Source: an uncultured Spirochaetota bacterium
GTDB lineage: Bacteria > Spirochaetota > Spirochaetia > JAFGXN01
DNA: 64,000 nt
Reading direction: 5' to 3'
Assembly (NCBI GenBank): GCA_944388995.1
Contig: CALXKN010000002.1
Span: forward strand, 1 to 64,000
Shown here one piece after another: positions 23,740 through 25,676 of the stretch. Position numbers and translations under genes: made by a program. A model generated the notes under the pieces. That model saw only the letters and a list, made by a program, of their open reading frames with translations, searched no databases and had not been told where the DNA came from. Numbering within the stretch: position 1 is the stretch's first letter; the number at the start of each line of letters is the position of its first letter.

Positions 23740-24210
23740 ATGGCTAAAACAGGAGAAGGCAAGAAAACTCAAACGCAGGCGGATCCGATTTACGGAAATA
23801 GTGTTGTGGCCCGTTTTGTCGGGCGGATGATGCTGGACGGAAAAAAGACCGTCAGTTATAGAAACATTTACGGAGCGCTGGATCTTTTAAAGGAAAAGGG
23901 CAACGAAAAGCCGCTGGATGTTTTTTTAAAGGCAATCGATAACGTGAAACCGCAGGTTGAGGTCAAATCAAGGAGAGTCGGCGGTTCGACTTATCAGGTT
24001 CCGGTTTCCATCGACGAAAAACGGCAGGAAGCGCTGGCTATGCGTTGGGTCATTAAAGCGGCCCGCAGCCGGAGCGGTAAAACGATGGCGGAGAAGCTGT
24101 GCGCCGAGTTTTTGGACGCCTCCAACTCGACCGGAGCGGCCTTTAAGAAAAAAGAGGACACTCACCGCATGGCGGAAGCTAACAAGGCTTTCAGCCACTA
24201 CCGTTTCTGA
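23740..24210 (+). CDS. rpsG: 30S ribosomal protein S7 (uS7)
   Basis: 156 aa. It nucleates the 30S head and contacts the E site. The conserved [20 protein letters not shown] and [12 protein letters not shown] blocks are followed by [19 protein letters not shown], and the C-terminus ends NKAFSHYRF. fusA, normally next in the str operon, is absent; 231 nt of regulatory DNA and tuf follow. Confidence 0.97.
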
Positions 24211-24224
24211 AAATAAAAAATTTA

Positions 24225-24263
24225 ACGCAAACTCTTGACTTAAACGGAGTTTGCGTGTAATAT
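24225..24263 (+). promoter_or_regulatory. tuf promoter enclosed by a 10-bp inverted repeat
   Basis: TTGACT (24235-24240), a 17-nt spacer, and TAATAT (24258-24263) form a strong promoter. A perfect inverted repeat, ACGCAAACTC (24225-24234) and GAGTTTGCGT (24247-24256), brackets the -35. It could be an operator or, in the rpsG transcript, a hairpin. No T run follows, so a terminator role is weak. Confidence 0.75.
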
Positions 24264-24269
24264 CAATAC

Positions 24270-24430
24270 GCAGACTGTCCAAACCGGTTAACCGGCCTTT
24301 CAGGCGAGGATAATCAGGTGGAAAGTCTCTTTCTATAAGAGATTCTTCTGAACCGATTCCACCGAATACAGTCTCATTTGTGTAAAAAGGCAGAATAACT
24401 GCTGATAAATAGAACCATTATTTTATCTTG
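24270..24430 (+). promoter_or_regulatory. Long structured 5' leader of tuf (candidate cis-regulatory RNA)
   Basis: The transcript should start near 24270, giving a ~170-nt leader, by far the longest in the cluster. By eye it folds as a three-way junction. The closing stem is AGACTGT (24272-24278) with ACAGTCT (24368-24374). Stem 2 is CCGG-TTAA-CCGG (24284-24295). Stem 3 is GGTGGAA (24317-24323) with TTCCACC (24357-24363), topped by an 8-bp helix (24324-24331 with 24337-24344). A further small hairpin GCAG/CTGC (24390-24402) precedes the SD. The AGTCTC sequence occurs twice (24325, 24370), allowing an alternative pairing of the 5' end. No match to a riboswitch class I know. Confidence 0.6.
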
Positions 24431-24441
24431 GAGGAAAAAAG

Positions 24442-25626
24442 ATGGCAAAGGATAAGTTTGTAAGAACGAAACCGCACATTAACGTAGGAACGATCGGTCA
24501 CGTTGACCACGGTAAAACGACGTTGACGGCGGCGATTTCACAGTACTGCGCCCTGAAAAACGGCGGTAAAGTGATGAAGTATGAGGATATCGATAACGCT
24601 CCGGAAGAAAAAGAGCGCGGTATCACCATTAATACCCGTCACGTTGAGTATGAAACGCCGACCCGCCACTACGCTCACGTTGACTGTCCGGGGCACGCCG
24701 ACTACATCAAGAACATGATTACCGGTGCTGCTCAGATGGACGGCGCGATCATTTTGTGTGCGGCCGATTCCGGTCCGGAACCCCAGACCCGCGAACACAT
24801 TCTGTTGGCCCGTCAGGTCGGAGTTCCCAAGTTGATTGTTTTCCTGAATAAAATGGATTTGGCCGATCCCGAATTGGTGGACTTGGTCGAAATGGAGATT
24901 CAGGACATTCTGACCAGCTTCGGATACGATGAAAACACGCCGATCATCAAAGGTTCCGCTTTTGAGGCGATGAGCCATCCGGATGATCCGGAAAAGACGA
25001 AGTGCATTCAGGAGCTGCTGGATACAATGGATGCGTACTTCCCGATTCCCGAGCGCGATGTCGACAAACCGTTCCTGATGCCGATTGAGGATATTTTCTC
25101 GATTCAGGGCCGCGGAACCGTTGTTACGGGCCGTGTCGAGCGCGGCGTTCTGCATATGAACGACGAGCTGGAAATTGTCGGTATCAAGGAAACGCAGAAA
25201 ACCGTTTGTACCGGTATTGAAATGTTCAATAAATTGTTGGATGAGGCTCAGGCCGGCGACAACATCGGAGCTCTGCTGCGCGGTATCGATAAAAAGGCCG
25301 TTCAGAGAGGACAGGTTTTGGCGAAGCCGGGAACGATTACTCCGCATTCGAAATTCAAGGCGACGGTTTACGTTCTGAGTAAAGATGAAGGCGGACGCCA
25401 CTCCCCGTTCTTCAACGGTTACCGGCCGCAGTTCTACTTCAGAACAACCGATATTACGGGAACGGTGACATTGCCGGCAGACAAGCAAATGGTTATGCCC
25501 GGCGACAACGTAGAATTGACTGTTGAGTTGATTCACCCGATTGCAATGGAGAAAGGTTTGCGCTTAGCGATTCGCGAAGGCGGCAAAACCGTTGCCAGCG
25601 GTCAGGTTACCGAAATCATCGAATAA
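24442..25626 (+). CDS. tuf: Elongation factor Tu
   Basis: 394 aa. GTPase that delivers aminoacyl-tRNA to the ribosome. G1 is GHVDHGKT (residues 19-26), followed by the switch-I block [15 protein letters not shown]3 DCPGHADY, G4 NKMD and G5 GSAFEA. Domains 2 and 3 are complete, ending [30 protein letters not shown]. It has its own promoter and long leader, fitting the very high expression expected. A 12-bp hairpin separates it from rpsJ. Confidence 0.98.
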
Positions 25627-25641: not shown

Positions 25642-25676
25642 AACAGTCCTGCTTGTATGAGCAGGACTGTTTATTC
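25642..25676 (+). terminator. Attenuator-like hairpin between tuf and rpsJ
   Basis: A perfect 12-bp stem AACAGTCCTGCT (25642-25653) / AGCAGGACTGTT (25660-25671) with a 6-nt loop is followed by only a short T-rich TATT, then the rpsJ SD. Since no promoter is seen before rpsJ, incomplete termination here would set the tuf to S10-operon ratio. Confidence 0.65.

Follow-up and report, generated by a model that had tools for sequence, protein, structure and literature searches.

A candidate cis-acting leader RNA upstream of tuf, shared by most sampled families of a spirochaete class

INTRODUCTION

Few bacterial proteins are as abundant as EF-Tu; to our knowledge, little is known of how its level is set outside the enteric bacteria. 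The window analyzed here, a 64,000-nt stretch from an uncultured Spirochaetota bacterium (contig CALXKN010000002.1, positions 1 to 64,000), carries tuf inside a ribosomal protein gene cluster, preceded by an unusually long gap. What does this DNA do? A sequence-only reading of the window had proposed that it is transcribed as a long leader, folds into a three-way junction, and may regulate tuf. We compared the leader with its counterparts throughout the spirochaete class and asked which of its structures are conserved, and what they might recognize.

RESULTS

The tuf leader and its promoter. The tuf gene begins at 24442, 231 nt beyond the rpsG stop at 24210, and the neighboring gaps measure 12 nt (rpsL-rpsG), 82 nt (rpoC-rpsL), and 60 nt (tuf-rpsJ). 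Because a promoter, TTGACT-17-TAATAT, sits at 24235 to 24263, transcription is predicted to start near 24270, which would give a leader of about 172 nt; the proposal of some 170 transcribed nt in a cluster of otherwise short gaps agrees with this. The elements of the locus are as follows.

24235 to 24263, + strand: tuf promoter predicted from sequence; -35 box TTGACT (24235 to 24240), 17-nt spacer, -10 box TAATAT (24258 to 24263)
24401 to 24441, + strand: ribosome-binding region; weak hairpin GATAAA/TTTATC (p about 0.2 here), then TTGGAGG
24442 to 25626, + strand: tuf (EF-Tu), the putatively controlled gene
25642 to 25676, + strand: terminator-like hairpin between tuf and rpsJ, predicted from sequence

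The leader folds at -44.4 kcal/mol, against -34.9 ± 3.6 kcal/mol in dinucleotide shuffles (z = -2.6), and its first 117 nt likewise give z = -2.6. It is present as a single copy in this genome and is 96% identical to the leader of a sister species. The -35 box is bracketed by a perfect 9-bp inverted repeat, CGCAAACTC/GAGTTTGCG (24226 to 24255), which the sister species also has; in a further genome, G002, the -35 box is likewise carried by an inverted repeat, but one of other sequence and with a T-rich tail. It is as if an rpsG terminator or an operator overlapped the tuf promoter.

A core hairpin with an invariant bulged helix. Sequences ahead of tuf, read in about 90 of 98 class genomes, have an element in common. 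In order, it consists of CCAAACC, a variable stem-loop, and AGGUGG, which together form a helix P1, CCA[AA]CC/GGUGG with an AA bulge, then an unpaired A (partner position R/N), followed by a 7-bp helix P2; the terminal loop beyond P2 varies from 4 to more than 70 nt. Its parts in the window are given below.

24271 to 24329, + strand: core hairpin of the leader RNA, P1 plus P2; leave-family-out model match, E = 6e-4
24272 to 24276, + strand: P1 extension, 5' strand AGACU; alternative partner at 24370 to 24374
24279 to 24285, + strand: P1 5' strand CCAAACC with the AA bulge (62-leader table)
24287 to 24293, + strand: P2 5' strand GUUAACC; a single A-A mismatch in the window genome
24308 to 24314, + strand: P2 3' strand GGAUAAU
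24316 to 24321, + strand: AGGUGG, the unpaired A plus the P1 3' strand (62-leader table)
24324 to 24328, + strand: P1 extension, 3' strand AGUCU; shared with the hairpin 24324 to 24331/24337 to 24344

Among 62 distinct leaders, the P1 5' strand contains AAA in all 62 and the A preceding GGUGG is kept in nearly all. The outermost P1 pair is C-G in 55 and U-A in 7, the latter form occurring in G002, from the window's own family; the innermost is C-G in 59 and U-A in 3 (TCAAACT...AAGTGA in family f13). One locus (L068) has a degenerate copy, GAGCCAAACGG...GAGGUUC, and its family mates carry the intact motif.

Both P1 and P2 covary, as two separate counts show. Of the 905 cells in a table of 62 distinct leaders, drawn from 25 of the 35 families, 821 are paired, against 712 ± 7 (maximum, 736) in shuffles, and 109 carry double changes, against 33 ± 5.5 (maximum, 51 in 1,000); this table is structure-anchored, with its register fixed by the anchors and its members partly picked for pairing, and the shuffle statistics ignore relatedness among the leaders. 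Aligning 26 members with MAFFT gave double changes at 8 of the 15 pairs and a paired fraction of 93.8% of cells, which falls to 27 to 56% when the partner is shifted by 1 to 3 columns. Trained on 31 sequences with the window's family wholly left out, covariance model R2 returned 24271 to 24329 as its top match in the 64 kb, with E = 6e-4 and a runner-up at E = 0.47. The sequence-only reading had staked its proposal on covariation among relatives, and it is clearly present.

Distribution in the class. The core hairpin stands before tuf in 25 of the 35 families sampled and is absent from 10, among them f20, apparently the Borrelia group. Model R1 found 168 of 395 class genomes positive, with exactly one copy apiece, and in a phylum-level sample every match falls inside the class. 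A scan of 84,980 species with the exact pattern gave 65 loci, 58 of them spirochaetal; 56 of these 58 stand 121 to 281 nt upstream of tuf, and in the other 2 the contig ends past rpsG and the motif. The 7 loci from other phyla, with no tuf, rpsG, or rpsJ nearby, are at the level of chance (about seven expected, by an estimate from 41 specified bits and 31 gap lengths). The long, structured leader that had been noticed in one genome is therefore not peculiar to it.

The motif lies 41 to 1,924 nt from rpsG, whereas its distance to tuf stays stable, and in Treponema vincentii and T. putidum there is no rpsG near it; hence, the element travels with tuf. Wherever the contig is long enough, rpsJ comes next after tuf, and no metabolic or transport gene was found among the occurrences. 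The motif is absent from five loci of family f28 and three of f20, whose tuf genes have long leaders with conserved blocks of their own, possibly replaced or rearranged versions of the motif leader.

In 41 of 47 genomes, tuf and rpsJ have a terminator-like hairpin between them, where shuffles predict 1.25; the sister-species copy of the window's hairpin (25642 to 25676) is counted among the 41. These hairpins differ in sequence. From sequence, their recurrence suggests a conserved partial termination that would uncouple EF-Tu from the levels of the S10 operon, and because such a hairpin parts the two genes, tuf rather than the S10 operon is likely to be the main target of the leader.

Alternative folds. 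The sequence-only reading had built its three-way junction from stems that do lie in the window where it placed them: AGACUGU/ACAGUCU, CCGG/CCGG, GGUGGAA/UUCCACC, and AGUCUCUU/AAGAGAUU. It had called all of them perfect, and the last has one G-U pair. Two of the strands concerned are listed here.

24357 to 24363, + strand: UUCCACC, alternative partner of GGUGGAA (24317 to 24323), excluding P1; genus level only
24368 to 24374, + strand: ACAGUCU, alternative or outer partner of AGACUGU (24272 to 24278); genus level only

As a conserved structure, the junction does not stand. Alignments give it no support past the window's genus, to which its stems are confined and in which the sister species offers one compatible G-U change, and two of the stems exclude P1; the middle mini-stem CCGG/CCGG competes with P2, and GGUGGAA/UUCCACC occupies the 3' strand of P1. 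The pairing of AGACU (24272 to 24276) with AGUCU, described as an alternative and placed at 24325, also exists, the AGUCU copy lying at 24324 to 24328; it extends P1, so that it is part of the conserved fold.

Mutually exclusive folds were correctly foreseen. In the full window leader, the enforced junction (-41.4 kcal/mol) and the P1-P2 folds (-40.9 to -42.1 kcal/mol) are nearly isoenergetic, within about 1 kcal/mol. Folding of successive prefixes favors P1-P2 at 60 to 80 nt (-22.5 kcal/mol at 60 nt) and, from about 110 nt onward, the junction. Across 25 families, the GGUGG strand shows weak enrichment of pairing with downstream sequence (Stouffer Z = -2.1; control, -0.2), and we rejected such pairing as a class-wide rule on account of that weakness. 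That P1 and a downstream partner act as a switch is plausible; since the competition is weakly enriched across families, this step is tentative.

Other features of related leaders. The leaders of a large group of families continue with a second domain, of the pattern UUCCAGA...[P4]...CNAYGUC[P5]GACCUCUGGAUCC; P5 covaries and P3 is nearly unvarying. RNAalifold applied group-wide to the whole leader recovered the core plus part of domain II and nothing more. Most families have a TTGACN-type promoter upstream of the motif, with predicted starts usually 7 to 55 nt before it. Families f8, f27, f31, and f34 have an additional strong promoter downstream of the motif and ahead of tuf, so part of the tuf transcripts there would lack the motif. 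Near-consensus TTGACA promoters in this position were seen at seven loci, in several of which the motif comes shortly after the rpsG stop; read-through plus a second start seems likely at these loci.

Several families have a strong hairpin flush with the tuf Shine-Dalgarno sequence, with differing stems such as UUGUGAC/GUCACAA, UUGUGU/ACACAA, and UUGCGUU/AACGCAA. Sixteen loci carry it (for example, UUGUGAC..GUCACAA directly before GGAGG), with compensated changes in the stem; in the window, the corresponding hairpin before tuf is not significant (p about 0.2).

Search for known RNA classes. A search of Rfam 15 (4,227 families) with the window leader and 40 related leaders gave chance-level matches, far below the gathering scores, in line with the earlier remark that no standard cis-regulatory class has this form. 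No 16S or 23S rRNA likeness was found; the best match in rRNA loci (E = 0.5) was a fragment without P2. The searchable main texts of the literature on r-leaders and of structured-RNA surveys mention no spirochaete tuf leader. We regard the leader as previously uncatalogued, an earlier unpublicized prediction being possible.

DISCUSSION

The leader probably controls the amount of EF-Tu made. A regulatory role had been called plausible from the window alone, and the covariation, the class-wide distribution, and the exclusive folds strengthen that view. To the fuller reading, that the leader belongs to an uncatalogued, class-wide cis-acting RNA that is bound by a protein, perhaps EF-Tu, and regulates tuf, we give an even chance. 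The evidence is much stronger for the class-wide leader and its control of tuf than for the candidate ligand or the switching step. On this reading, the leader would regulate tuf in cis, and the P1-P2 hairpin would be the first structure to fold as the RNA emerges. Its invariant bulged helix P1 would be what the ligand, most likely a protein, recognizes; the simplest candidate is EF-Tu, free or in complex, which would thereby exert feedback on its own gene. A bound ligand would keep P1 together, and without it the GGUGG strand could pair downstream, as GGUGGAA/UUCCACC in the window or GGUUCCAGA/UCUGGAUCC in many relatives, altering how accessible the ribosome-binding site of tuf is. The more specific idea of an ancient, spirochaete-wide sensor of elongation factor supply, in which EF-Tu (free or in ternary complex) binds CCA[AA]CC/GGUGG and sets its own level, is one that we put forward as doubtful.

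A ribosomal protein leader, bound by a protein of the S10 operon such as L4 or by S7 from upstream, with tuf controlled as the head of the operon, is unlikely, though it has precedent: the classical regulator of S10 operons is L4, acting through a long, structured leader (PMC10931766), and r-leaders are diverse and lineage specific (PMC7247131). The constant presence of rpsJ after tuf fits such a leader; the terminator-like hairpin between the two genes, the lack of detectable rRNA similarity, and the distant or absent rpsG in Treponema speak against it.

That the structure merely keeps tuf mRNA abundant, as a constitutive 5' stabilizer or translation enhancer that senses nothing, would suit the very high expression of EF-Tu, the closeness of the hairpin, in most families, to the predicted 5' end, and the recurrence of hairpins flush with the Shine-Dalgarno sequence. 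We think it improbable, as the near-invariant unpaired bases and P1 pair identities fixed beyond what pairing requires argue for specific recognition.

Invariant unpaired AA and A beside short conserved helices have the look of an aptamer, and the competing folds would serve a riboswitch responding to an ion or small molecule linked to translation status. Riboswitch classes, however, usually occur upstream of several kinds of genes. An aptamer would be expected upstream of genes that share one metabolite; here the motif precedes tuf alone, with no metabolic or transport genes, which makes a riboswitch a poor prospect. Two other ideas were rejected: a DNA operator, by the frequent G-U pairs of P2 and the internal-loop spacing of the motif, and a 3' element or terminator of rpsG, by the variable distance or absence of rpsG where tuf is close.

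An uncatalogued RNA class extends across most of a bacterial class, Treponema species included, as a single copy in each carrier genome and beside a single gene, so that the question of its ligand is directly testable. Should EF-Tu prove to bind its own leader, this would be the first leader RNA class dedicated to tuf.

Among known systems, candidate RNAs from HMP2 data precede the L7/L12 and L20 genes in Treponema (PMC8040213) and are alike as cis RNAs before translation genes; they concern other genes, and tuf goes unmentioned in the main text. In Salmonella, tufB is reported to be autoregulated (Brandis et al. 2016, as cited in PMC6134099), a tuf gene under self-control, as is proposed here, but in another phylum. 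The rpsJ motif (RLC-47-1) of Peptostreptococcaceae (PMC11109978) is also a structured leader of an S10-type cluster; it differs in phylum and sits before rpsJ instead of tuf. A further comparison is with the ribosomal leaders (r-leaders). Like the E. coli S10 leader bound by L4, the tuf leader is a covariation-supported 5' leader of a translation machinery gene, restricted to one lineage and one operon. None of the 20 r-leaders described by Eckert and Weinberg in 2020 is spirochaetal or precedes tuf (PMC7247131). Imitation of an rRNA site, common among r-leaders but not obligatory, was not found here, and the motif always precedes tuf, with rpsJ, the next gene, beyond the terminator-like hairpin. 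The tuf leader would add a leader type that has a translation factor, not a ribosomal protein, as its first target.
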